A DNA stretch of 64,000 bases from Cereibacter johrii. GTDB lineage: Bacteria; Pseudomonadota; Alphaproteobacteria; Rhodobacterales; Rhodobacteraceae. The translations under genes were made by a program, and so were the position numbers. Below the pieces are notes generated by a model. The model saw only the letters and a list, made by a program, of their open reading frames with translations, was not told the DNA's origin and ran no database searches. The DNA is taken from positions 1-64,000 of the forward strand of contig NZ_MABH01000136.1 in the NCBI RefSeq assembly GCF_001720585.1, given 5' to 3'. Of the stretch, positions 4,375 to 43,667 are shown one piece after another. The first letter of the stretch is position 1, and each line of letters begins with the position of its first letter.

Positions 4375-5097
4375 ATGATCGCATTCCGTCCGCTGCCTGA
4401 TGACCATCCCGACCTCGCGCATTTCCCCTTGCTGCGCGCGGCGCTGCTCACCTTGCGGTACGCGCAAGAGCACGGCGCCATCGGTCTGACGAAATCGAAT
4501 GCCTTCAAGCGGGTCTTTGTGCATTGGGCGGTCGAGGCCTTCAACTGGCCCGGAAAAAGCGCCGAGGAGATGTTCCGCTACAACAAGGTGATCAACGAAT
4601 ACGAATTCCCGCCGCTCGAAGTGCTGCACGCCCTGCTGACCGGCCTGCGCCTTGGTCGGCATTACAAAGGCGAATTCAAGGTCACCAAGCGCGGGGCAGA
4701 GTTGGCGCAGGCTCCGGGGCAGCTCTTCGCCGCGCTGATCCCTCACTATCTCTTCGAGATCGACCATGCCTCCTACGCGCGTTTCGACGAGTGCCCCTTC
4801 GGCACATGGGACGTCTGGATGAATGTCATCAATGTCGAGGCGAACCTTGGCACCACCGAGCGCAAGCTCTTTGCCGCCTTTTACGGCGAGGAGCAGGATT
4901 GGGACACGCCCGGTTGGCGCGACATGGCCGCCTTCTCCTCGTGCGTGCTGCGTCCGCTTGAATGGGCGGGCCTTCTGATGCAACCGCGTGAGGCGCAGTA
5001 CGGCGCCACCACGCGCGAGGTCTTCAAGACGCCCCTCTGGCGCGCCGCGCTGAAACTCGACACCGATCAGATGTTGCGGCCGGTTCTGGTGCAGTGA
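4375..5097 (+). CDS. uncharacterised rightward prophage gene
   Basis: 240 aa from the ATG at 4375 (MIAFRPLPDDHP); the same frame is open further upstream to 4219, but that part is low-complexity and Arg/Ala-rich, unlike real coding here. The protein has an alternation of aromatic and acidic residues and a segment (about 90-105) rich in basic residues (GRHYKGEFKVTKRG) that resembles a winged-helix wing. No signal peptide or membrane segment. It runs against the leftward prophage operon and beyond the last tail gene, so it is probably a lysogen-expressed accessory gene. No function can be assigned, and no strong ribosome binding site is visible. Confidence 0.6.
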   Translation: MIAFRPLPDDHPDLAHFPLLRAALLTLRYAQEHGAIGLTKSNAFKRVFVHWAVEAFNWPGKSAEEMFRYNKVINEYEFPPLEVLHALLTGLRLGRHYKGEFKVTKRGAELAQAPGQLFAALIPHYLFEIDHASYARFDECPFGTWDVWMNVINVEANLGTTERKLFAAFYGEEQDWDTPGWRDMAAFSSCVLRPLEWAGLLMQPREAQYGATTREVFKTPLWRAALKLDTDQMLRPVLVQ

Positions 5098-5150
5098 CTT
5101 TTGCTTGGCCTCGAGGGCAGGGGGCGCCGGTCGGACCTGCAAGACGGGCC

Positions 5151-7073
5151 TCAGTAATCGGTTTCCAGATAGACCCCGGCACAGTCATAGGCGACGGCGG
5201 CGGCCGTGACGCCGGTGTTCAGGAAGAGCCGCGGCGAGAGGAATTGCGTGTTCGCGGGCAAGTCGGCGGTGATCTCCTGTTCGAACACCGCGCCTGACAC
5301 CTCGTCGACGACGCGCACCCAGACAGAGCTGCCATTCGGCGGCGCTGCGATGAAGAGGGTGAGCACGCCGCCGGTGGCGATGGCGAAGCTCGCCCCCATG
5401 TCGGTGAGCGTCGGTGCCCCCGAGGCATCATTCGTCACCATCTGCCAGCGCGTGTGTGTCCCGCGCTGGAAACCGATGCCGATGCAGGTGATAGCAGTGG
5501 CGAGCGTCAGGGTGGTTGCGAGAGCGGCCGTTGATCCGTAGAGGCCGAAGAACCCCATGCCGGTCGCCTGCAGGGTCGTGAGCGAAATCCGCGTGACGAA
5601 GGTCCAACCGCCCAGGCCCGCCGCGTTGCCGCGCCAGCAGGCCCAGCCTGCGGAGCGCTGGTCGGCGACCGAGTCTGCCACTGCGGCCGAGGTCAGACGC
5701 CAGCGCCGCATCGAAGCGGCGAGGTTGGTCGAGGCCAGTGTGGGATGCGAGACGGTGCCGACCGAGGTGAGCGGCAGCCCCTCGGCGGTGATCGTGGTGC
5801 TGGTCGAGGGCGACCAGTTGGCGATCCGGTTGACCCCGAAGTGTGGCTGGAGGGGGAAGTCGCGGCCCGAGGGGCGCATGACGTCGATCCATGGGGCGCC
5901 TGCGCGGTTACGGGCGTAGACCGACGCTTTGCCAGCGGGCGGCGGGGGCGGGGCAATGGTCAGTCCCGGCAGGACCGTGGGCTGCGGCAGTTCCACCTGG
6001 CCGCTGGTGCGGTCGATGCGGATCGCGTCGAAGAAGGCCGCGCCGTCCGGGCTGACCTTGATGCCGAAGTCGTCGTTGCCGAGCAACCCGATCAGCGCCC
6101 GCGCCGAAAACCCGGTCTTGAAGGCAAAGGCCGCGTCGTTCGCGGCCGCGGCCTTGTTGACCGTCGCCTCGATCCCGGCGCCTGCGTTGTTCAGAAGCAC
6201 TGCGGGCGTGTTGACCGAGAGCCGGTTATAGGTGTCCGCCGTCGCTCCGCCGAGTCCGAGCTGTTGCGCGGTAAGGTTTGCCTGGGGCATGCCCACCTGC
6301 GTCACGGCGTTGGCGAAGGTGACGGTGGGCGTGTTGATGACGGTCGTGCCGCCCGCGCCAGCCGTGGCCGAGCCAATGTTGACGACCGTGGTCGATCCAG
6401 ATGCACCTCCGGTCCCGAGGTTCACGGTCTTGGTGACGCCCGTTGTCGTCGCCCCGGTGCCCAACCCATAGGTGGCGGTGCCTGTTGCCGTGCCGATCGA
6501 GGCGCTGGCGGCCGACACCGTCACGGTCCCGGACGCTGTAAGCGTGCCCGAGAAGGTCTTGTTGCCGGTGAAGGTCTGGGTACCCGCCAGGATCGCGAGT
6601 TCCGACGAGGTGTTCGGCAGTGTGAAGCTGCGCGTCGTCCCGGTGCTGATCCCCGACAGCGAGAAGGTCGCCTTCTTCGTCGGATCGGCATCGTTGACGA
6701 GGCTGAAGATGGCATCCGACACATTGCTCGGCTCGCCCACGACCTCCCAGGCGCTGCCGCTCCAGGCGAGGAACAGGCTTTCGGCCGCGACCCAAGTGAG
6801 CCAGCCGGGGCGCGGCAAGAGGCGGATCCATGCGCCGTCCACCCAGAAGGCCACATTCAAATCCCACCCGGCCCAAAGGCCGGTCGCGCCGGGGGCCACG
6901 AGGTGCCGGTTTCCGTCGGCCGGGCTGGCCGGGGGCGCAGTCCGCGTGCGGTCGAGGACCGAGAGTTGCACCATGGCATCGAGCAGCCGGAGGGCCTCGT
7001 TGTGGGTGACATGCTTTTGCGCCTGCGCCGCCAGAAGGTAGGGCAGGCCCAGATGGGTCGTGGTGTCTGACAT
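5151..7073 (-). CDS. DUF2793-type tail fibre / host-recognition protein
   Basis: 640 aa. The first ~90 residues (LPYLLAAQAQKHVTHNEALRLLD ... WVDGAW) match the DUF2793 module found after the tail hub in Rhodobacterales phages and near gene transfer agents. Residues about 150-260 are Gly/Thr/Ser/Ala-rich with near-periodic strands, as in a fibre shaft. The C-terminal ~200 residues look like a globular beta-rich tip. It is the last gene of the leftward morphogenesis operon, 21 bases after the tail hub. The role in binding the host surface is inferred from position and composition. Confidence 0.75.
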   Translation of the reverse strand: MSDTTTHLGLPYLLAAQAQKHVTHNEALRLLDAMVQLSVLDRTRTAPPASPADGNRHLVAPGATGLWAGWDLNVAFWVDGAWIRLLPRPGWLTWVAAESLFLAWSGSAWEVVGEPSNVSDAIFSLVNDADPTKKATFSLSGISTGTTRSFTLPNTSSELAILAGTQTFTGNKTFSGTLTASGTVTVSAASASIGTATGTATYGLGTGATTTGVTKTVNLGTGGASGSTTVVNIGSATAGAGGTTVINTPTVTFANAVTQVGMPQANLTAQQLGLGGATADTYNRLSVNTPAVLLNNAGAGIEATVNKAAAANDAAFAFKTGFSARALIGLLGNDDFGIKVSPDGAAFFDAIRIDRTSGQVELPQPTVLPGLTIAPPPPPAGKASVYARNRAGAPWIDVMRPSGRDFPLQPHFGVNRIANWSPSTSTTITAEGLPLTSVGTVSHPTLASTNLAASMRRWRLTSAAVADSVADQRSAGWACWRGNAAGLGGWTFVTRISLTTLQATGMGFFGLYGSTAALATTLTLATAITCIGIGFQRGTHTRWQMVTNDASGAPTLTDMGASFAIATGGVLTLFIAAPPNGSSVWVRVVDEVSGAVFEQEITADLPANTQFLSPRLFLNTGVTAAAVAYDCAGVYLETDY

Positions 7074-32585: not shown

Positions 32586-33905
32586 CTATCGCTCCGCTTT
32601 CCGCCCCGTCGCCATCTCCCACCGTCGCACGGCGACGTCGCAATAGACCGGGTCCAGCTCCACCGCGCAGCATCGTCGCCCAGTGCGTTCGGCGGCGATC
32701 AGCTGGGTGCCTGAACCGCAGAAGGGCTCGAACACCAGGTCGCCGGGGTCGGAGAAGGCTTCCAGCACCGCCTCGACCAGCGCCACCGGGAAGACAGCCG
32801 GGTGCGATCCCGCCGCGCCCAGCCCGCCCTTGTGGCGCATGATGCGGAAGACGCTGTCGGGGATGCGGTGGCTCTGGATCGCGTTGCCGGTGCCGGTCTT
32901 GCGGTGGACAGTGCCGTCGGCCCCGCGCAACCCGCCTCCGCCAAGGGTTTCGCCCGCGTGCTTGCTCTCCACCGTCTTGTTCGGCTTTCGCGGGTGGCGG
33001 TTAAAGTGGAAGATGAACTCGTGCGACGGGGCGAGGCGGCCGTTCCAGTCACCCGGTAGGCCCGGTCCTTGGTCCCAGACATACCAGCCGAAGCGCCGCC
33101 AGCCCTGCGCGCGCATCCAGTCGACCCAGCCGTCCCAGTAGGGAATCCACTCGCCATCGCGATGGACGAGGCCGAGGTTGACCAGCAGCTGGGCATCGGC
33201 GGTGACGGGGGCCGCGGCGAAGACGCCCTGCATCAGCGCATCCCAGTCGCCGACCTTCTCCTTCGCCGCGCCATAGTCGCGCTGCTGGGCGTAGGGCGGG
33301 GAGGTGAACATCAGCGCCGCCTGCGCCCCGTCCATCAGCCGCGCCACCACGGCCGGGTCGGTCGCATCGCCGCAGATCAGGCGATGATCGCCCAGCGCCC
33401 AGATATCGCCGGGGCGGGTGATCGGATCGGCCGGGGCCTCGGGGATGGTGTCGGCGGTGTCATCGTCGATGGACGCACGGTCGTCGGCATCGTGCAGCAG
33501 CGCGTCCAGTTCATCCTCGGGGATCCCGATCAGCCCGAGGTCGAAGTCCTCGGCCATCAGGCCCCGCAGTTCCTCGAGCAGGAGTGCCTCGTCCCACCCG
33601 CCCAGTTCGGTCAGCTTGTTGTCGGCGATGCGATAGGCACGGCGCTGTGCCTCGGTCAGATGGCCCAGCACGATCACCGGCGCCTCGGCCAGCCCCAGCT
33701 TTGCCGCCGCCAGGACGCGGCCGTGGCCCGCGATCAACTCGCCATCGGCAGCGACGAGGCAGGGGACGGTCCAGCCAAACTCGGCCATGCTGGCGGCGAT
33801 CTTCGCTACCTGGTCGGCATCATGGGTCTTGGCGTTACGCGCGTAGGGGCGGAGGCGGGCCAGCGGCCACTGCTCGATCCTGCCGGGTAGGAGGGGCACA
33901 TTCAT
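32586..33905 (-). CDS. ParB-N / DNA methyltransferase fusion, SPPY type
   Basis: 439 aa. Residues 10-110 are a ParB N-terminal domain (RLRPYARNAKTH, GELIAGHGRVLAA, YRIADNKLTELG). Residues 165-430 are a beta-class amino-methyltransferase with SPPY at 202-205 first and the AdoMet motif EPFCGSGT near 405 after it. SPPY usually marks N4-cytosine enzymes. Its ATG overlaps the stop of the paralogue upstream (ATGA). Such fusions are common orphan methylases of phages and may protect phage DNA from restriction. The ParB part may guide DNA binding; its CTPase activity is untested here. Confidence 0.88.
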   Translation of the reverse strand: MNVPLLPGRIEQWPLARLRPYARNAKTHDADQVAKIAASMAEFGWTVPCLVAADGELIAGHGRVLAAAKLGLAEAPVIVLGHLTEAQRRAYRIADNKLTELGGWDEALLLEELRGLMAEDFDLGLIGIPEDELDALLHDADDRASIDDDTADTIPEAPADPITRPGDIWALGDHRLICGDATDPAVVARLMDGAQAALMFTSPPYAQQRDYGAAKEKVGDWDALMQGVFAAAPVTADAQLLVNLGLVHRDGEWIPYWDGWVDWMRAQGWRRFGWYVWDQGPGLPGDWNGRLAPSHEFIFHFNRHPRKPNKTVESKHAGETLGGGGLRGADGTVHRKTGTGNAIQSHRIPDSVFRIMRHKGGLGAAGSHPAVFPVALVEAVLEAFSDPGDLVFEPFCGSGTQLIAAERTGRRCCAVELDPVYCDVAVRRWEMATGRKAER

Positions 33906-35164
33906 GCCGCGAGCCGCTTGGCTTTCAGGGCGGCGAAGGTTTCGCCGGTTTCCGCCAGCACCGCCTCTTGGCCGGTGAAGGATTGCCAGCGCTCGATGGC
34001 CACATCGACATAGGCCGGGTTCAACTCAATCCCGAAGCACACCCGCCCGGTGGTTTCGGCTGCGATCAGCGTGGTGCCAGATCCCATGAAGGGCTCATAG
34101 ACCGCTTGGCCGGGGCTGGAATTGTTCAGGATTGGCCGCCGCATGCATTCGACCGGCTTCTGCGTGCCATGCACGGTGTCGGCATCTTGATCCCGGTTGG
34201 CGATCTGCCACAGCGTGGTCTGCTTGCGGTCTCCGGCCCAATGACCCTTTCCCTTGGCGCGCACCGCATACCAGCAGGGTTCATGCTGCCAGTGGTAATC
34301 GCCGCGGCTGAGCACCAGCCGGTCCTTCGCCCAGATGATCTGCGACCGGATGGCGAAGCTCGCCGCCACCAGGCTATCCGCCACGGTCCCCGCATGCAGC
34401 GCGCCATGCCAGACATAGGCGACGTCACCAGGGAACAGCGCCCAAGCATCGCGCCAGTCGGCGCGGTCGTCGTTCAGCACCTTGCCGGTGCGTTTCGTCT
34501 TCGCGGCCCCCGCGGCATTGCGCCAGGAGGGATCGTATTCGACGCCATAGGGCGGGTCGGTGACCATCAGCAATGGGCGCAGATCACCGAGCAGCCGCCC
34601 CACGACATCGGCCGCAGTGCTGTCGCCGCAGATCAGCCGATGCGCGCCCAGCTGCCAGAGATCGCCCGGCACCGACACCGGTGACACCGGCAGTTCCGGA
34701 ACATCGTCCTCGCCCTCGACCGGACCATCGCCGCCCAGCGCCTCCGGATCCCGCAATAGCGCGTCGAGGTCATCGTCGCTGATGCCGAGCAGGGTCAGGT
34801 CGAAATCCTCGGCCAAGAGCCCCGCGATCTCGTCGCGCAGCATCGCCTCGTCCCATTCGCCCAGTTCCGTCAGCTTGTTGTCGGCGATCCGGTAGGCCCG
34901 GCGCTCGGCCTCGTCGAGGTGGCTGAGCCGGATCACCGGCACCTCGGTCAGCCCGAGCATGGTCGCGGCCAGCACGCGACCATGGCCCGCGATCAGTTCG
35001 CCGTCGTCGGCCACCATGCAGGGCACGGTCCAGCCGAACTTGGCCATGCTGGCGGCGATCTTCGCCACCTGGTCGTCGCCGTGCATCTTGGCATTGCGGG
35101 CATAGGGGCGCAGCCGGGCAATCGGCCAAGATTCAACCTGGCTCGGCGCGAAGACGAGGTCCAT
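33902..35164 (-). CDS. ParB-N / DNA methyltransferase fusion, DPPY type
   Basis: 420 aa with the same layout as its downstream neighbour: ParB-N about 10-110 (RLRPYARNAKMH, GELIAGHGRVLAA), then DPPYGVEY at 203-210 and EPFMGSGTT at 357-365. DPPY indicates N6-adenine methylation. The first ~130 residues are nearly the same in both copies while the catalytic parts differ, so the pair arose by duplication with exchange of specificity. The upstream gap 35165-35640 contains short direct repeats. Confidence 0.9.
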   Translation of the reverse strand: MDLVFAPSQVESWPIARLRPYARNAKMHGDDQVAKIAASMAKFGWTVPCMVADDGELIAGHGRVLAATMLGLTEVPVIRLSHLDEAERRAYRIADNKLTELGEWDEAMLRDEIAGLLAEDFDLTLLGISDDDLDALLRDPEALGGDGPVEGEDDVPELPVSPVSVPGDLWQLGAHRLICGDSTAADVVGRLLGDLRPLLMVTDPPYGVEYDPSWRNAAGAAKTKRTGKVLNDDRADWRDAWALFPGDVAYVWHGALHAGTVADSLVAASFAIRSQIIWAKDRLVLSRGDYHWQHEPCWYAVRAKGKGHWAGDRKQTTLWQIANRDQDADTVHGTQKPVECMRRPILNNSSPGQAVYEPFMGSGTTLIAAETTGRVCFGIELNPAYVDVAIERWQSFTGQEAVLAETGETFAALKAKRLAA

Positions 35165-35640: not shown

Positions 35641-36264
35641 CTACTTGTCGGAACCCTCAAGGAAGAGATTGCAGCTCACATGCGCAACCGCGAGCTCTTC
35701 TCCGGAAGAGTGCGCATGGTGCGACAAGAAGGACCATTTGATGGTGTGGTCAGAAGTATGTCCCTGCTGACGGCATGGTAAATCTTCATCCATCTTTGCC
35801 CTAACCGATTTTACCAGCTGCGCGATGTTGCTCTTCCTAACGTAAGAAAGAACAACGCCTCTCCCTTCTCTACCTGTTGTGTATCGGCTTAGGAGCTGTT
35901 CTAGCCCACTTATATGATAGCTTGGTCCATCATGAATTTTGGCTTCAAAGAGTTTCTTTCTCACGGGTGTGCAATGGTCCAAATATACAGTGATGTCCAC
36001 ATGGCCATTCGAGTGTGCTTCTTGAAGCACTGTCACGCCAGGCATTTTAAGCGAGGCAGCGAACACACCTGACAAACCCACTTCGTCTAGAACGGCAAAG
36101 TTCTTCTTATTCACTTCCAGATGATCGACTGCTTCCCCTATAAAGGCATCATAGGCATTGTCGAACTCATCATCTGTGCTGGCGCAAACGAGATCAACGA
36201 AATTCGGTGCCTTCTTCATTAGCAACTCTGCAAAAGCGAGGGCTGAGTTCGGGTTCACAGTCAC
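35641..36264 (-). CDS. accessory PD-(D/E)xK nuclease-like protein of the restriction island
   Basis: 207 aa from a GTG at 36264 that overlaps the Res stop as GTGA; an ATG at 36291 would overlap 31 bases and is less likely. Residues about 88-125 give the nuclease signature: Asp90 in GHVDITVYL, then Glu107-Ala-Lys109 in KKLFEAKI, followed by a helix with ISGLEQLLSRY, as in restriction-type PD-(D/E)xK folds. The N-terminal 80 residues are helical. G+C is visibly low. Third gene of a Mod-Res-X operon. It could be an extra nuclease, or a specificity or control partner; the family itself is not recognised. Confidence 0.65.
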   Translation of the reverse strand: MTVNPNSALAFAELLMKKAPNFVDLVCASTDDEFDNAYDAFIGEAVDHLEVNKKNFAVLDEVGLSGVFAASLKMPGVTVLQEAHSNGHVDITVYLDHCTPVRKKLFEAKIHDGPSYHISGLEQLLSRYTTGREGRGVVLSYVRKSNIAQLVKSVRAKMDEDLPCRQQGHTSDHTIKWSFLSHHAHSSGEELAVAHVSCNLFLEGSDK

Positions 36265-39200
36265 CGCGTAAACCCTTCCATGAACTCCCACCTTACTTCG
36301 AAACTATTCGCCCAGTTTCGCCATTCTGATTTTGTAATCCTACCTTGCTTCCAAGCGGCCATCATTTTGAATAGGTCGGCCAAGCCCGCCGTGCTGGTCG
36401 ACCCGGAAACTGGAAGCAGCCTCATGCGCAGGAGTGGGGGCTCATAGTCTGTCAATGCCGAAACAACGGACAGACCTTGGATCACTTCGCATGATGCGGC
36501 ACTTGCAGCAGATTCAATATGCCTTAGCTGGAAAAAATTCCTGTTTTCTTGCTGCGCCTGTTCAAACAGTATTTGGCCTGCCTTAACCATATTTGGCATG
36601 TCACTAAAGTGCTGAAGGAGCGTGCCCTTGAGCGCATTCGGAAACTGATCACTGTTGAACAGTGGCAAGTTTGCACTCTGCTGTTCCAGGTCCCACTTCT
36701 GACTCGCTAGGCCATTGATGGCCAGTCCGACCTTGCCTGGATCATCTACCAGCAGATAGCGCCACGTCCCGTATCCGCCTGTGTGGTTTACGGCTTCGAC
36801 CCAGCGCTCAGCTGCCTTTGCCTTCGCGTCTGCATCGTCATTAACTCGACCTTTGATCTCGACGATTACGTTCAGACCTTTGTCGGTTACGACAATGAAG
36901 TCAGGGACATATCGAGAGACAACACCTCGATGTCGGTAAGGAATAGTGAAGCCAAGCCTATCGTTCTTGACCCAGCGCTTTACCCCAGGATGACTATCGA
37001 GAAGGAATGCAGCACTCTGTTCCCATTTCTCAGTATCGGCCACCATCGCGTTGAGGTGGCATCGATTGACTGGGTAGACTGGCTTTGTCGAATGAAAATC
37101 GACGTTCAAGGTGCTTCCGCGCCCTGCTGCACCAGTTGGAATGACCGCGACCTCGCGCTCTCCCGTCTTCGAACCTTTCTTGATTGCCTCAAGCAGGGAG
37201 CTGATCGCAGCCTGCATGTACTCGCCTACCAACAGCAAGTCTCTTGGTAGACTGTCACCCTTTAAATCGAGCTTCTCGTCGAGGAATCGCTTTGATGCGA
37301 ACGCAACCTTCGGAAATAGCTGCTGAACCGGAACAGCTTCTGCGCCGTTATCGGCTTGCCAACGAGCACAGACCTCCCGAGCGAGTCTGAATGCCACCTG
37401 TTGATCGCGGAATCGCGCCCGCCAATCTCTCAGGGACAACACGGGTCGCTCACCCGGTCCGAAAACGGCGAGCGAGCCGTCCGGTGAAGTCAGCGGCGTC
37501 AGCTCCACCGTCTGTGGGATCTTCATTGGATCGATGGTGACCTTTGACACCTTGGACCAGTCGACATGAACATCGAAATGCCCCGTCTGATGGTATCCGG
37601 ACACGACCGGGAATGTGATTTCGTAGTCTGCTTTCTCGGGGACGGAGAAGATGTGATTGGGGTCGGGTTGGGGCGGCTGCGGGCCGACTGGTTTGACTTT
37701 GAAGGGGATCAGTTCGAACGGAACCCCAAAGACCTTTGCCGTTTCCTCGGCAAACATTTGGGTTTCTTCGTTCAACGCGTAGCTCTTGCGCCGCAATGCC
37801 CTGCCGACCACCTGTTCGCACAGGAGCTGTGACCCGAACGGCCGCAAACCAACGATGTGCGTGACCGTGTTCGCGTCCCATCCTTCCGCCAGCATGGCGA
37901 CTGAAACGATACACCGCACATCGCGACCTGGCGGTATGCGCTCATCGATCCACTTTATCGAACCGTCATTTTCATCGCTTGCGACCTTGTCATTGTGCTT
38001 ACGGACCAGTTCGGACCAGTCTTCAGGGATCCTGCCTCCCGGCCAAGTCGCCTTGCCCACGGTGTCGAGGATGAACCGGAGGCGTTTGGTCTCGTCTTTC
38101 GAGCCGCCGTCCTCGATGTCCTCCATCACCTTCGAGTCGATCCGGACCGTTACTTCCTGTCCGGGCGCGTTCCTGAACCAGCTGGGCGCGACGCCGTAGC
38201 TATCGTTGCCATTACCCAACCAACCGTGGACCTCTTTGGCGACCGCCGTGTCGCGGCAGACCACGATGAACACGGGCGGCACCGGGTGCTTCTGCTGCTG
38301 CTTGGATTGCTGCTCCCACTCCGAAAACCGCTGGTACCATTCTTGAGCGAGCAGATTGATCGGTGCCGAGGCATAGTTCATCACGATCTCGGGCGTGATG
38401 TTGGTGCCGAGGCCATCTTCCTTGGCTTTCGCCTGCACCCACCGCCAGATGTTGAAGTAAGCGGCTTCCTCCGCCCCCGATACATCTCGGGCGGGTAGCT
38501 GCGGGATCTTCACGAGGCCCGATTCAATGGCGTCGAGCAGACTGAAGTCCGAAACGATCCAGGGGAAGGGCTTCCCGACCTCGTTGCCTGATCCCTGGAT
38601 GTAGAAAGGCGTTGCCGAAAGATCGACGCACAGGTTGATCCCGCGCCTGCGGCCGCCGCCAGCCAGCTTGTTGATCCTGTCCAGCGCCTCAACCCAGATA
38701 GTCGCTTCCCGAGCGTTCTTGCTGGCGAGATCTTTGTCCTCGTCGAGGCTTTCCTCGCTTGCCGCATCGCCGCGACGATAGGCGTGGTGGGCCTCGTCGT
38801 TGAAGATCAGCCAATGCGGACTCCGGCCTTTGCCGCTGCCCAGCTCTCGGCGGACACGCTTGAACCATGCCGGATCGGACTCGAAGTACTTCGTCTCCAC
38901 GCTTTCGTTGGCCTTGCCAGCATTCTTGACGACCTCGACCGCTTCCCCGGTTTTCACGACCTTGGCGCTATCGCCGTTGACTGTGTTCGTCTCCTTTTTC
39001 GCCAGGCGATGCCAGTTGGCGATCATCACCTCGCCGCGGCGCAGCTCTTCCATACGGTGCGGCGGGACGAGTTGGCGCGTCCGGTAGAGGCTGACATCGC
39101 CCAGCGCAGGGTCCAGTTCTTGCAGCCGCTCGCGGATCGTGACGTTCGGACAGACTATCAGGACCGTGTCCGAAAACCGGTCATCGCGGGGTGAGGCTAC

Positions 39201-39806
39201 GCGGTTCAGGATCGACCAGGCGGCCAGCATGCCCATGACGGTCGTCTTGCCGCTGCCCGTCGCCATCTTGCAGGCGTAACGAATAAAGGCGCGGACACCG
39301 GCCGCCTTTGCCTCCAGCCCGGGTTCGTCCCGAGGAACTTCGGGAACGCCCTTGCGGTAAACGTCTTTGGCCTCGACGAGAAAGATGATCGTTTCGGCCG
39401 CCTCGATCTGCGCAAAGAACAGGCGTTGCATGCGCTGATCGCTGCGCCAGAGTTCCAGTAGTTCCCGTGTCACAGGCGACGCGCCATCATAGGCCACGCC
39501 ACCGCTGTGGATGCCTGCCCGCCAATCCTTCACGCGACCGCGGATCGCGTTGACGATCTCAAGTTCGACCTCTTCGCCCGCCTGGCTTTCGAACAGCTCC
39601 GCCTGATTGCGGTCAGGGCGGCCGCGGCCGGAATGTTCCGGCACGCGGTAGAAATAGCTCGCACGGCGCCGACCCTCTGCCTTGTAGGGGGGCTTGGCCT
39701 TCTCGATCTTCCAGTGAACCTGCGGTTCCCGGAACGGCGAGTTGATGATGACCGGCTGATCCTCGGGGATCGGTTGCGGTGCGTCTTGTTCTGCGGCAAC
39801 GGACAT
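36261..39806 (-). CDS. type III-like restriction enzyme Res (helicase-nuclease)
   Basis: 1,181 aa. Superfamily 2 translocase: Walker A MATGSGKTT at 181-189, DEAH box at 337-340 (LIFNDEAHHAY), a VDLSATPF motif III and motif VI QVVGRALRR after EGWDANTVTHI. A PD-(D/E)xK endonuclease follows at about 965-987 (YVPDFIVVT ... VIVEIKGR). About 190 further residues extend the C terminus beyond usual Res subunits. The N terminus (INSPFREPQVHWKIEK) matches the subgroup I know as BPTD_3080-type restriction endonucleases. With Mod it should translocate from, and cut near, unmethylated sites. Its ATG shares a base with the Mod stop (TGATG). Confidence 0.9.
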   Translation of the reverse strand: MSVAAEQDAPQPIPEDQPVIINSPFREPQVHWKIEKAKPPYKAEGRRRASYFYRVPEHSGRGRPDRNQAELFESQAGEEVELEIVNAIRGRVKDWRAGIHSGGVAYDGASPVTRELLELWRSDQRMQRLFFAQIEAAETIIFLVEAKDVYRKGVPEVPRDEPGLEAKAAGVRAFIRYACKMATGSGKTTVMGMLAAWSILNRVASPRDDRFSDTVLIVCPNVTIRERLQELDPALGDVSLYRTRQLVPPHRMEELRRGEVMIANWHRLAKKETNTVNGDSAKVVKTGEAVEVVKNAGKANESVETKYFESDPAWFKRVRRELGSGKGRSPHWLIFNDEAHHAYRRGDAASEESLDEDKDLASKNAREATIWVEALDRINKLAGGGRRRGINLCVDLSATPFYIQGSGNEVGKPFPWIVSDFSLLDAIESGLVKIPQLPARDVSGAEEAAYFNIWRWVQAKAKEDGLGTNITPEIVMNYASAPINLLAQEWYQRFSEWEQQSKQQQKHPVPPVFIVVCRDTAVAKEVHGWLGNGNDSYGVAPSWFRNAPGQEVTVRIDSKVMEDIEDGGSKDETKRLRFILDTVGKATWPGGRIPEDWSELVRKHNDKVASDENDGSIKWIDERIPPGRDVRCIVSVAMLAEGWDANTVTHIVGLRPFGSQLLCEQVVGRALRRKSYALNEETQMFAEETAKVFGVPFELIPFKVKPVGPQPPQPDPNHIFSVPEKADYEITFPVVSGYHQTGHFDVHVDWSKVSKVTIDPMKIPQTVELTPLTSPDGSLAVFGPGERPVLSLRDWRARFRDQQVAFRLAREVCARWQADNGAEAVPVQQLFPKVAFASKRFLDEKLDLKGDSLPRDLLLVGEYMQAAISSLLEAIKKGSKTGEREVAVIPTGAAGRGSTLNVDFHSTKPVYPVNRCHLNAMVADTEKWEQSAAFLLDSHPGVKRWVKNDRLGFTIPYRHRGVVSRYVPDFIVVTDKGLNVIVEIKGRVNDDADAKAKAAERWVEAVNHTGGYGTWRYLLVDDPGKVGLAINGLASQKWDLEQQSANLPLFNSDQFPNALKGTLLQHFSDMPNMVKAGQILFEQAQQENRNFFQLRHIESAASAASCEVIQGLSVVSALTDYEPPLLRMRLLPVSGSTSTAGLADLFKMMAAWKQGRITKSEWRNWANSFEVRWEFMEGFTR

Positions 39807-42772
39807 CAGACGGCATCCTCTTCGCCGCGGGTCGCCATCAGCTCGTTGCCGCGCTCGTCGATCACCTTGACCGCGATCCGCTTCTTGTCGCCCAGCGCGA
39901 AGGGCTCGCTGACCGTCCCCGCAAGGTGCGACCAGACGCTGTCCTCGAACTGGCCTTTCAGCGATTTCTGCAGGTTGTCCCAGGCGCTGGTCTTCGGGAA
40001 GAACACCTGGCTGGCATAGAACGCCATGCCGTTGTGATTGGTGTCGAGCATCCAGCAGGGCAGGTTTTCCGCGTCGATGTGATCCGTGTCCATCAGATGC
40101 GGCATGAAGATGTCGAGCCCGCGCAGCTCCACACGATAGAGCGGCGTGCCATCGGCACGTTGCCCTGCCTTCTTCAACCGCACATCCGGCAGGCCGGTAA
40201 TCGAGAAGATTTCGCTGTTCTTCGACGTCTTCAGCAGGTCCGACATCACCACATCCGGCGTCACCGCGATGTAGGCCGTCGGGATCTTCATCTTTTCCAG
40301 AAGCTCACGAGCTTTGGCCTGGATCGCAAAGCCGAACAGGAACAGCTGACTAAAGCCCTGCTGCATCGCCTCCATCGCGGCGTTGAAGACGTAGTCGGAT
40401 CCGATGGCGCCGTCCTCCGGGCCGAAGGCGATGGCGATGGTTTTCTCGCTGCCGTTCTTTGCCACGGCCTCGGCATGCAGATACTCGCGGTCGGCCAGTG
40501 GGCGAACGTTGTCTAGTTGCAGCGTCACGTTCCCGGGCAGGCTCAGCGATTTGCTTTGGCGCAGTACTTCGGTCATCCGGTCAAGGTAGGCGCGCGGACT
40601 GGAAGACTGGGGCTGCGCGGACGTCCCGTCGGTATCGTCCTCCATGCTCATCGCAGCCTGAATAGTGGCCTCGACCGTGAAGGGTCCGCAGACCCTCGTG
40701 ATCTTGTCGTTCACTTCGGGGCGGTCGACCAGCACCTCCATCTTGGGGTCTTCATCGTTAGCCACTTTCTTGAGGGTTATGCGGGGCACAAGCCCTCCAG
40801 TTTCGTCGCCTTTTCTGTTCTGCTTTCGCTCGTAAACAAATCCACCGGCAGGTCCCTTCGAAGGCTCTTTGAGGCGGTACCAAGGGAATGCAGTCGTTAG
40901 AAGGCGCTGCCTTGCCAAGGCGATGGGAACGCGCGACGTATCGACCGTAATCCAGCGCCGACCCCAGCGCTCGGCTACCAATGCGGAGGTGCCAGACCCG
41001 CAGGTGATATCAAGAACAAGGTCTCCTGGTTCCGTTGTCATGTGGAGACAGCGCGTGATTACCTTTTCTGCGGTCTGAACGACGTACATTTGATCTTCGG
41101 TAAAGCTGCCAGTTCCTGTGTCCATCCAGATATTGTCGAGGTAGGTTAGCGGATTGTCCTCCAGCAGTAGAATTGTTGAGAGGTTGGTACCACTCCACCA
41201 GAGGCGCCCCTTCTCAGCAAGTTTATCCATCTCTTTGCCGGGTTCTGGATCATAACTCCAGTGACGGTTTCTCGCGCAAGGAACCTCGATGCCTTTGAAA
41301 TTGTATGGCTTGCTCCGCCCCTCTTGGTAACCCTGCGAGGTAATCGGACCAAGCCTTCCGATCTTCCATCCCGTTGGGATAGGGTCTTCGCCGGAGATTT
41401 CTTTTTCCGTCATCTTTCGCATGTCAGACAGGTCGGGTGAAAAGATCGACGTGTATTGCTTGGCGCCGACATCGCCGGGTTTCTTGGGGCGCGAAAGTGC
41501 GGTAAATGCCTGACGTTCGATGTCCTTTGCGTAGACTACAAGGTAATCGCACACGGAGGGAATGCTGTCTGTGGATTGAGAGCTGGTTTTAAAGAAGGCG
41601 ATCTGCCCAGCATAGTTTTCCGGACCGAAGACCTCATCGAGGATTTCGCGCACATGATGAAGATTGTCGTCGGAAATTTGGACGAATACGCTTCCTGATT
41701 CCGATAGGAGCTCCTTCGCGAGGAGCATCCGATCTCGAATGAAAGTCATGTATGAGTGAAGACCGAGTTCCCATGTGTCCCGGTAGGCTTTCACCATCTC
41801 GGGCTCGCGGATCATGTGCTCGTCCTTACCGTGGTTATCTTTGACTGTTTTGTCCCTCACGAAGGGCTGGAAGTTCGAGCCAAACTTCACGCCATACGGG
41901 GGGTCGAAATAGATCATCTGCACCTGGCCACCCAATCCCTCGTATACGAGGAGCGAGTTCATCACCTGCAGCGAGTCGCCAAGGATCAGGCGGTTGGTCC
42001 ACGGGCCCTTGTGCTCGTAGGCATCCAGCCGGTCGGCAATGTCGAGGTCCAGATCGCCGAACAGGTCCAGCGTCTGCCCGCGCGCCTTGTGGGACTTCAG
42101 TGTTTCGAGGATCGCCGACGTCGAATGACGTTCGTGCACGAACAGGGGCAGCGTCGGCACGCTGATCTGCTGCCGTTCCGCCTTGCCTGCCCAGTTCAGG
42201 AAGGGCTTGGTCAAGCTGCGCAGCCGCGCCGCGCATTGCGACAGCGACGTGAACCGCTCCTCCGTCCCCTTCCAGACCTGTGGCTGGGCAAAGACCGTGG
42301 CCTCGCCCTTTTCAGCCGCATCCGCCACCAGGTTCAGCAGCCACTCCGCAAACGGCCGCTCGCCGTTCTCGTCCCATGCCAGTTCCGGCGCGAGGCTGGA
42401 GTCGTAGCGATAGGTCTTTGGCGGCTTGCGATGCGAGAACTGCGCCTCGACCCCGACATCGGGACGCAGAACCGCCTGGTCGGCATGCGCATAGGCGCCA
42501 GACCCGGCCGAGGATGCGATTGGCGCAGCTTTGGGCTTGGCAGGCTGCTGTGCCTTGGGCGCGTCACCATTTGCCCTTGCGACCGAGCCACCCTGACCGC
42601 GCCCTTTGGTAAGCACGCCTTCGGCGATCATTTGGTCACGAACCTCGTGATAGTCCTCGTCCGTCAGATCCGGCAGGTTTTCGCGGAGCCGTGCGATCAG
42701 GGCACGATTGCCGATGGTGGAACCATCTTCGGGGATAAGGGACAGGACAAGATCACGCAGGGAATCGGACAT
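39806..42772 (-). CDS. type III-like DNA methyltransferase Mod
   Basis: 988 aa. N-terminal ~60 residues are a winged-helix module (LRDLVLSLIPEDGSTIGNRA), followed by a Lys/Ala/Pro linker. The beta-class N6-adenine catalytic order is DPPYGVKF at 290-297 first, then DITCGSGTSA at 588-597. The long stretch in between carries the target-recognition region. Residues 620-988 are an additional C-terminal part, much longer than in classical Mod, with a mixed alpha/beta region that may contact Res. It modifies host DNA and defines the recognition site. The start is divergent from the CoiA-like gene. Confidence 0.9.
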   Translation of the reverse strand: MSDSLRDLVLSLIPEDGSTIGNRALIARLRENLPDLTDEDYHEVRDQMIAEGVLTKGRGQGGSVARANGDAPKAQQPAKPKAAPIASSAGSGAYAHADQAVLRPDVGVEAQFSHRKPPKTYRYDSSLAPELAWDENGERPFAEWLLNLVADAAEKGEATVFAQPQVWKGTEERFTSLSQCAARLRSLTKPFLNWAGKAERQQISVPTLPLFVHERHSTSAILETLKSHKARGQTLDLFGDLDLDIADRLDAYEHKGPWTNRLILGDSLQVMNSLLVYEGLGGQVQMIYFDPPYGVKFGSNFQPFVRDKTVKDNHGKDEHMIREPEMVKAYRDTWELGLHSYMTFIRDRMLLAKELLSESGSVFVQISDDNLHHVREILDEVFGPENYAGQIAFFKTSSQSTDSIPSVCDYLVVYAKDIERQAFTALSRPKKPGDVGAKQYTSIFSPDLSDMRKMTEKEISGEDPIPTGWKIGRLGPITSQGYQEGRSKPYNFKGIEVPCARNRHWSYDPEPGKEMDKLAEKGRLWWSGTNLSTILLLEDNPLTYLDNIWMDTGTGSFTEDQMYVVQTAEKVITRCLHMTTEPGDLVLDITCGSGTSALVAERWGRRWITVDTSRVPIALARQRLLTTAFPWYRLKEPSKGPAGGFVYERKQNRKGDETGGLVPRITLKKVANDEDPKMEVLVDRPEVNDKITRVCGPFTVEATIQAAMSMEDDTDGTSAQPQSSSPRAYLDRMTEVLRQSKSLSLPGNVTLQLDNVRPLADREYLHAEAVAKNGSEKTIAIAFGPEDGAIGSDYVFNAAMEAMQQGFSQLFLFGFAIQAKARELLEKMKIPTAYIAVTPDVVMSDLLKTSKNSEIFSITGLPDVRLKKAGQRADGTPLYRVELRGLDIFMPHLMDTDHIDAENLPCWMLDTNHNGMAFYASQVFFPKTSAWDNLQKSLKGQFEDSVWSHLAGTVSEPFALGDKKRIAVKVIDERGNELMATRGEEDAV

Positions 42773-43001: not shown

Positions 43002-43667
43002 ATGCGATTTGCCATCCATAACGAGTCCCGAATTGAAGCAGCGCCCCAAGCGAGGGGTTTATGTCCCGGGTGTGGCGCTGAGCTCGTCGCCAAATGCGGC
43101 AACGTCAAGGTCTGGCACTGGGCACATAAGGGGCAGCGGCACTGTGACCCCTGGTGGGAAAACGAAACCGAATGGCGCCGCGCATGGAAGAACAACTTTC
43201 CTACTGACTGGCAAGAAATTCCTGCTCGCGACCCAAAAGGGGAGTTGCACATCGCGGATATCAAGACGCCGCACGGGCTGGTGGTTGAATTTCAGCACTC
43301 CCACCTCAAGTCGGACGAGGCACTGCAGCGCACTGCGTTTCATCAGAACATCATCTGGGTCGTGGACGCCATGCGCCGCAAGACCGACGCCAGCCAGTTC
43401 ATGCGGGCAAAGTACGAGGGGATGCGGCACGATACGAAAGACGGTGTCGTCGACCAGCTCTGGCTTTACTCTGCCCGACTGCTCAAGGAGTGGACAAAAG
43501 TGGGTGTAATCACCGCCTTTGACTTCGGCGGTGAGAAGGTGTGGTTGCTTCGACGCGTGCGTTCGGATTGGATTTACGGGTTCGAATATCCAAAGACCAA
43601 GCTGATCGAGCATATCTCCGAGGGTAGCCCATTCCCAGACGTGCTGTTCGGAAAGCCCGGGCGCTAA
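43002..43667 (+). CDS. CoiA-like PD-(D/E)xK nuclease with zinc finger
   Basis: 221 aa. N-terminal zinc finger: Cys21 and Cys24 (CPGCG), with His39/His42 (HWAH) and Cys48. Then the CoiA-type nuclease core: Asp86 in HIADIKT and Glu96-x-Gln98 in VVEFQHSHL, followed by the helix around EALQRTAFH and the VVDA strand. CoiA is a competence-linked protein; nuclease relatives occur beside restriction systems. It is the only rightward gene of the island and converges with the next phage gene (4-base overlap of ends). Confidence 0.8.
   Translation: MRFAIHNESRIEAAPQARGLCPGCGAELVAKCGNVKVWHWAHKGQRHCDPWWENETEWRRAWKNNFPTDWQEIPARDPKGELHIADIKTPHGLVVEFQHSHLKSDEALQRTAFHQNIIWVVDAMRRKTDASQFMRAKYEGMRHDTKDGVVDQLWLYSARLLKEWTKVGVITAFDFGGEKVWLLRRVRSDWIYGFEYPKTKLIEHISEGSPFPDVLFGKPGR

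Follow-up and report, generated by a model that had tools for sequence, protein, structure and literature searches.

In Hachiman, the PD-(D/E)xK nuclease HamA is partnered with the superfamily 2 (SF2) helicase HamB. PrrC, a tRNA anticodon nuclease, is encoded with EcoPrrI in a type IC locus and stays latent until a phage inhibits EcoPrrI, a process that involves Stp (the part of PMC12707154 drawn on here). The closest published pattern that we encountered is the nuclease-protease pair, presented in the portion of Tuck et al. 2025 (PMC12799240) used here as a two-part effector that unrelated systems have acquired repeatedly, with one part fused to a core protein and the nuclease separate. Here we describe a locus of probably similar layout from Cereibacter johrii (assembly GCF_001720585.1, contig NZ_MABH01000136.1, positions 1 to 64,000 of the forward strand; this whole stretch of 64,000 nucleotides is called the window). 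Its minus strand carries Mod, Res and a third gene, C, in an overlapping series. We read this island as a type III restriction-modification (RM) system onto which a transferable effector cassette, made of an adaptor domain (B) and the nuclease C, has been grafted. The cassette belongs with the modular effectors of bacterial immunity, here joined to a type III enzyme, and the proteins that precede B and C, which we call fronts, are unusually varied.

In their parts, the described systems differ from this one. The nuclease-protease pairs, as set out in that portion of the source, combine a metallo-β-lactamase (MBL)-type nuclease with a trypsin-like or caspase protease, whereas the motif and topology of C are of the PD-(D/E)xK kind and the two free B proteins scanned are without a Pfam match. 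The likeness to PrrC lies in the way of working only, as a precedent for guarding a restriction enzyme: instead of a latent anticodon nuclease in a type IC locus we find a PD-(D/E)xK protein at a type III locus, and the B-C cassette, unlike PrrC, also stands behind non-restriction proteins. The BPTD_3080 type III RM system is matched in its Mod and in a helicase-nuclease Res that scores above the curated cut-off; the window differs from it by the B domain on Res and by the third nuclease gene. The features of the island are these:

39806..42772, minus strand: Mod, a type III-like N6/N4 DNA methyltransferase of 988 amino acids (aa) (Pfam N6_N4_Mtase 4.3e-23; PADLOC MTase_III 1.3e-135)
39804..39808, minus strand: TGATG stop/start overlap of Mod and Res, read at the junction
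36717..39806, minus strand: Res core, residues 1-1030, predicted SF2 helicase with its own PD-(D/E)xK nuclease (NF046055 match)
36849..36905, minus strand: Res nuclease signature PDFIV...EIKG, residues 968-986 (motif)
36267..36656, minus strand: probable B domain, Res residues 1051-1180 (hhalign, span of a hidden Markov model (HMM), break in guanine-plus-cytosine (G+C) content)
36261..36264, minus strand: GTGA start/stop overlap of Res and C, read at the junction
35641..36264, minus strand: C, predicted PD-(D/E)xK nuclease of 207 aa with a GTG start (kept E61/E107/K109, AlphaFold2 fold, phrog_9664)
35938..36084, minus strand: putative catalytic stretch of C, E61, D90, E107 and K109 (residue conservation)

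An initial annotation of this DNA had described a three-gene island joined by TGATG and GTGA overlaps, and the open reading frames (ORFs) and junctions were found in place at the lengths it gave. The whole Res gene spans 36261-39806 and encodes 1181 aa. Its residues 19-1030 match NF046055 (BPTD_3080 family restriction endonuclease) at 1160.2 bits against a curated cut-off of 800, and it carries GSGKT, DEAH, SATP, GRALRR and PDFIV...EIKG, the helicase motifs and C-terminal PD-(D/E)xK signature of a type III Res. This last signature, claimed earlier as a nuclease domain of Res itself, is present and recurs in the Res proteins of two related loci, L114 and L078. Mod has DPPY at 290 and GSGT at 592, with the DPPY and S-adenosylmethionine features of type III RM. 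On these motifs and matches, we assign Mod-Res to type III RM, with a BPTD_3080-type Res and a long Mod. The long C-terminus of the 988-aa Mod had been pointed out; the length stands, but Mods of related loci measure 869-1131 aa (14 of 17, those in which Mod is neither cut nor split), which removes the extension as a special feature and makes it an ordinary trait of the subfamily.

The census that carries our argument was made by searching plasmids, phages, viral contigs and genomes with C, and so samples C-bearing loci and leaves C-less ones unsampled. We read 51 loci and set aside two distant ones of single-protein type (L115, L116), which leaves 49. Excluded beforehand were loci that repeat the window (L001, L025, L042, L049), identical or nearly identical loci (L054, L057, L062, L011, L112, L117, L119, L120, L124, L125), short versions of loci read at greater length (L043-L048, L063-L066, L105-L111) and three near-copy plasmid matches. 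The front is a protein that we call A in 37 loci, Res in five (the window, Rhodobacter sp. SY28-1, Thetidibacter halocola, Pseudorhodobacter aquimaris and L114), and a type ISP enzyme, an MmeI-like enzyme, elongation factor Tu (EF-Tu) and ribosomal protein S3 in one each; three loci have none that is recognisable. B, an adaptor of about 135 aa, accompanies C in all 49. In 48 of them it comes immediately ahead of C, as a protein of its own or as a C-terminal addition to the protein before it. The B-bearing gene there ends anywhere from 15 bases ahead of the longest-ORF start of C to 69 bases beyond it; the sole exception is L100 (4090-6519), where the two are 1.28 kb apart. At every locus with a recognisable front the parts run front, B, C, and in nine loci B forms the C-terminal part of the front itself (five Res, type ISP, MmeI-like, EF-Tu, S3).

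These data bear directly on what had been made of the third gene. The initial annotation had suggested a distinct type III variant, and had fixed in advance that homologues of C occurring mostly alone and unrelated to Res would count against it. The homologues are indeed mostly unrelated to Res, but they do not occur alone, B being with them each time. The translationally coupled second nuclease that it described is present. With 44 of the 49 C loci lacking a Res front, the distinct variant was not borne out, and a restriction of C to this group of Res was rejected as well (a Res front in 5/49). Conversely, we read the surroundings of 17 further BPTD_3080 Res genes, from 16 genomes, and found no C in those stretches, some of which end at contig ends; our HMM found no B-like tail on these Res. 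C is rare: it occurs in 7 of 398 genomes of a phylum sample, 6 of 295 of a family sample and 1 of 385 from the window's class, each count including the window's own genome, and in 5 of 249 from one order and 2 of 229 from a second class, each including the genome at the centre of the sample and one match of the L115/L116 type.

The assignment of C to the PD-(D/E)xK nucleases rests on motif and topology together, since the fold matches are middling and Foldseek alone is weak. E61, E107, K109 and Y128 are kept in 49/49 loci and D90 and Q123 in 48/49, so that the PD-(D/E)xK signature reported earlier for the third gene, which we place at E61, D90 and E107-x-K109, proves near-invariant. An AlphaFold2 model built with 20 sequences (predicted local distance difference test score (pLDDT) 89.4) has a helix at 61-72, strands at 77-83, 89-95 and 102-110 and a helix at 114-125, which places E61 on a helix, D90 and E107-x-K109 on strands and Q123 on a helix, the order expected of the alpha-beta core of these nucleases. 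By VIA-align the model matched Wolbachia CidB/CinB domains, which are nucleases (Z 8.6, root-mean-square deviation (rmsd) 3.5, 129 aligned), BamHI (Z 7.3) and McrBC chain M (Z 6.0); all values were middling and acetyl-CoA carboxylase rows stood among them. HamA (8vxy) is also one of these matches (Z 5.8, 130 aligned, rmsd 3.8), tied with several other nucleases. Foldseek gave no match to the model at E 0.001, with acetyl-CoA carboxylase rows at the top. DUF1837 (HamA) did not match the window's C in Pfam up to E 1, and the PADLOC HamA model reached only one distant homologue of C (L010, E 0.012). Searches of C against Pfam, NCBIfam and PADLOC returned only PADLOC PDC-S54 (E 6.9e-6, in the C-terminal part of that model), and PDB sequence searches with profiles of C and of A gave nothing useful. 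PHROG phrog_9664 matches C at 6.7e-21; it and the families of A (phrog_12777) and B (phrog_11490) are all without an assigned function. Together the conserved residues and the predicted fold support the reading of C as a PD-(D/E)xK nuclease. The two loci set aside encode proteins of about 415 aa whose later part is C-like (L115 5013-6269, E 7e-15; L116 4877-6121, E 7e-10), with no Pfam match and no A or B found nearby; they are possibly related to the PADLOC candidate PDC-S54, a 410-aa model.

The initial annotation had counted some 190 extra residues on Res. The excess is real and its size is not: about 150 residues lie past the end of the NF046055 match at residue 1030, and from profile comparisons these are most likely a B domain, which puts B directly before C in the window, with the Res tail recognised by profile-profile comparison only. 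Comparison by hhalign of the Res tails together with L114 and L050 against B gave P 3.6e-6, a probability of 87.5% and a score of 38.0, where the best of 300 column shuffles scored 19.0; without L050 the values were P 2.1e-5 and 33.6 against a shuffle best of 16.2. Like the free B of L050, the Res tail ends within the start of C, and this shared synteny adds support to the assignment. The HMM that gives the span 1051-1180 includes the window's own tail among its sequences. An HMM built from 25 free B proteins alone (E values for a search of 1000 sequences) matched the tails of EF-Tu (2e-16), type ISP (3e-13) and S3 (1.3e-3) and the free B of L050 (0.038), and none of 7 plain Res or 2000 shuffled sequences did better than E 1. 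The census B HMM adds the EF-Tu, S3, type ISP, L072 and L073 tails to the 25 free proteins, and those rows match it by construction, as do the window-type, L114 and L050 tails in the tail HMM; the MmeI-like front and the remaining loci are independent of both, and the MmeI-like tail matched the census HMM at 7e-14. The tail HMM also hit the plain Res of L092 (E 0.0011), at residues 773-806, away from its end. We had considered that the tail was unique to this Res, which its profile match to B rejects. A Pfam scan of two free B proteins found no match.

Several lines of evidence show that B and C move between fronts as a unit. In a tree of C (47 rows, the near-copies L008 and L122 being counted in the 49 and omitted here), the Res-linked C and that of L050 form one clade (100/100), and the C of EF-Tu and of S3 nest among A-linked C (100/97 and 99/85). 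In a tree of the Res core (22 rows), the window group and L114 fall in different clades (100/100 each), which implies that Res gained B-C at least twice or that B-C passed between Res lineages. Aligned over 1007 aa, the Res of L114 and the plain Res of L078 share 78% identity, and the L078 protein stops close to the point at which B starts in L114; the slot after Res holds C and then Mod in L114, and an unrelated gene with a weak DUF4268 match in L078. Third-position G+C falls in L114 from 0.893 in the Res core to 0.396 in the tail and 0.425 in C, and in the window from 0.715 to 0.570 and 0.514, against a drop of at most 0.056 over the same length in plain Res genes (8 tested of 17). Total G+C in the window is 0.596 for the Res core, 0.508 for the tail and 0.486 for C; the low value of C was already noted in the initial annotation, and the window as a whole stands at 0.657.

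A related Res carries a different graft. L079 (5452-9187, minus strand) encodes a BPTD_3080 Res of 1123 aa with a nucleotidyltransferase domain of MNT type at residues 1041-1116 (6.5e-12), and the overlapping gene next to it is HepT-like (1e-27). MNT/HepT is a toxin-antitoxin pair, and L079 thus shows a second, unrelated pair attached to a BPTD_3080 Res as B-C is, in a layout that puts the controlling part on the Res tail and the destructive part in the next gene. Its tail was ruled out as B (hhalign P 0.53). The residues after the E-x-K-G motif number 60-91 in 14 of the 15 plain Res in which the motif was located (17 in total), 174 in L079 and 198 in the window. In L092 a free nucleotidyltransferase gene (2.5e-16) lies beside Res, followed by an ORF that is HepT-like by eye. 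The slot between Res and Mod holds other accessories in related loci: GmrSD_N proteins in L087 (9568-11454) and L088 (10281-12152), the weak DUF4268 protein in L078 (6079-6987), and a protein with no Pfam match in L086 (5578-6279).

The fronts themselves are diverse. The EF-Tu front (572 aa, L071) is the third tuf gene of its genome and 88% identical to the host EF-Tu over 391 residues; the S3 front (353 aa, L070) comes from an additional S3 gene, the second in its genome, is 62% identical to the host S3 over 218 residues, and reads GEGG where the host protein has GKKG, a site that we take to be the KH loop. In the type ISP front (1764 aa) Pfam identifies Mrr, helicase, coupler, methylase and specificity domains, and in the MmeI-like front (1089 aa, from a Rhizobium phaseoli plasmid) MmeI N-terminal, helicase-spacer, methylase and target-recognition domains. 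A, the commonest front, is predicted to be an RdgC-fold protein: its model (from L121, 14 sequences, pLDDT 88.9) matched RdgC in Foldseek at E 2.5e-5 and probability 1.00, and in a separate structural comparison at Z 9.9 with 235 residues aligned, though at an rmsd of 7.0. PADLOC on eight A and five B proteins gave nothing convincing, its rows being at chance level (one A hit Csm2 at E 0.0019, a second A hit Cas9 at E 0.28). Other observations were made at individual loci. In L071 a 651-aa protein with an HSP90-like ATPase domain (4510-6465, HATPase_c_3 5e-16) lies just upstream of EF-Tu-B and C. In L126 (6407-7473) the A gene is broken into two frames. L050 (1851-2803), on a viral metagenome contig, is a B-C pair with no recognisable front and with neighbours that are HigB- and HigA-like by eye; its C is 54% identical to that of the window.

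The form with A may already have been assayed. A-B-C occurs as three hypothetical proteins at the gpA-gpQ site of Escherichia coli P2-like prophages, a known defence hotspot, between a replication gene and a portal gene, in the three loci that we read (L134, L135 and L136, outside the 49), and the HMMs of A, B and C recognise these proteins. At the DNA level, 28 of 5426 E. coli genomes match one A-B-C, 6 of them along at least 80% of its length, and a scan of the same collection with a Leclercia A-B-C gave no match. According to the part of Rousset et al. 2022 (PMC9122126) drawn on here, a three-gene system without known domains at this hotspot protects against P1. A-B-C is a candidate for that system on position only; if the two are the same, the canonical form would have a measured effect but no mechanism. 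RexA, the lambda exclusion protein, has the RdgC fold (from the part of PMC11077077 used here). A differs from RexA and RdgC in an extra N-terminal helical part and in its partners, a nuclease and an adaptor where RexA has RexB; the likeness concerns A, which the window does not have. Within the open-access literature, subscription papers being outside this scope, we recognised no paper on the B-C module.

These data allow us to propose a mechanism, the likeliest of those considered and given about an even chance, in which C is normally inactive and B tethers it to a front under attack by phages. Through B, C would be attached to the front and restrained there, in the way that an antitoxin restrains its toxin. 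Phage attack on the front, here Res, its inhibition or its abnormal engagement would lead B to alter the state of C, and the released C would cut nucleic acid, so that the infection is stopped or the cell killed; an abortive-type response is a good guess. In the window Mod-Res would serve as the first line and B-C as a backup guarding it. Sequence or models show the linkage of B with C, the nuclease motif and fold of C, the transfer of the cassette and the extra-copy status of the EF-Tu and S3 fronts, and profile comparison supports the B domain of Res; that B binds C, that C is latent, what triggers it, whether it cuts DNA or RNA and how the cell fares are steps that we infer. We favour such a trigger because a single logic then covers restriction enzymes, proteins of translation and a DNA-binding protein, and the EF-Tu and S3 fronts, as spare gene copies, are suited to serve as bait; we also count the MNT/HepT graft at L079 in its favour. 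A broader version is somewhat less probable than not: a general guard cassette would comprise a spare copy of a phage-attacked protein with a B-tagged C-terminus and an attached latent nuclease, which any attack on the bait would set off, its baits would be a restriction enzyme, EF-Tu, ribosomal protein S3 and an RdgC/RexA-like DNA protein, the window would represent its type III form, with an immune enzyme as the guarded protein, and the MNT-type tail and HepT of L079 would be a second, unrelated guard cassette.

The fronts could instead deliver C. All those recognised are nucleic-acid binders by family, and C would then cut what its front binds: DNA for Res, type ISP, MmeI and the RdgC-fold protein, tRNA for EF-Tu, and the ribosome or mRNA for S3. 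The RdgC fold of A suits this, as RexA, of the same fold, and RdgC bind DNA non-specifically (the part of PMC11077077 used here). Three points count against delivery, which we consider about half as likely as guarding. A single nuclease family would need to serve both DNA and RNA, and the presumed KH loop of the S3 copy is without its basic pair. EF-Tu and S3 also bind RNA in every healthy cell, so that binding alone is no trigger, and a nuclease that cut whatever its front binds would kill its own cell unless something more were needed to set it off. Still less probable is the idea of the initial annotation that C is a type III accessory making a second, later cut in DNA already cleaved by Res, as the overlapping genes, the Res-B fusions in five loci and the three restriction enzyme types among the fronts might suggest; the 44 C loci without Res, the 17 BPTD_3080 loci with no C found in the stretches read, and the B-C pairs behind an EF-Tu copy, an S3 copy and an RdgC-fold protein all weaken it. 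A plain addiction cassette, with C as toxin, B (free or fused) as antitoxin and the front an irrelevant host on which they hitch-hike, would explain small paired genes on plasmids and prophages, the three loci with no recognisable front and the MNT-type/HepT pair likewise attached to a related Res. Nine full-length front-B fusions and 37 loci with an upstream A suggest that the front matters, and we rate this explanation lowest, a shade below the second cut.

Set against a grafted B-C cassette that guards its front are the following results. The B assignment of the window's Res depends on profile-profile comparison: the four close Res tails alone gave P 0.0013-0.0025 and an hhalign probability of 12-19% against B (200 shuffles, which started from the set that includes L050, all scored lower), the free-B HMM did not match the window-group tails, and a plain B HMM ranked the window's Res first among 18 Res, yet at a non-significant E of 0.3-0.9. 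Three B-C loci, L050 and two of one genome, have no recognisable front. For EF-Tu, S3, type ISP and MmeI-like alike, the front is known from a single locus, and the S3 contig is only 3.3 kb long. G+C changes hardly or not at all at the junction in the type ISP and S3 loci, and a drop at the junction is therefore not general to every front. Finally, given its RdgC fold, direct DNA sensing would explain A as well as guarding does.

The surroundings of Mod-Res-C are a prophage, as had been claimed from the start. Genes for the terminase large subunit, a head maturation protease, the tape measure and tail proteins share its strand, and an IMG/VR contig (L049) holds the same three genes at 100% identity. 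Elsewhere in the window, 32586-33905 and 33902-35164 are tandem overlapping ORFs, each joining a ParB-like part to a DNA methyltransferase part (the former called from PHROG matches, the latter by eye), and 43002-43667 on the plus strand, divergent from mod, encodes a CoiA-like protein (CoiA_N 5.7e-9) with a weak nuclease-like part.

If our reading is right, an additional gene found at a type III locus can be an effector grafted onto it. One nuclease module would be reused behind proteins that share little beyond a place in the cell's nucleic-acid machinery, near-copies of EF-Tu and S3 included, and together these loci would represent a guard system with exchangeable baits, whose list of fronts points to host proteins that phages attack.

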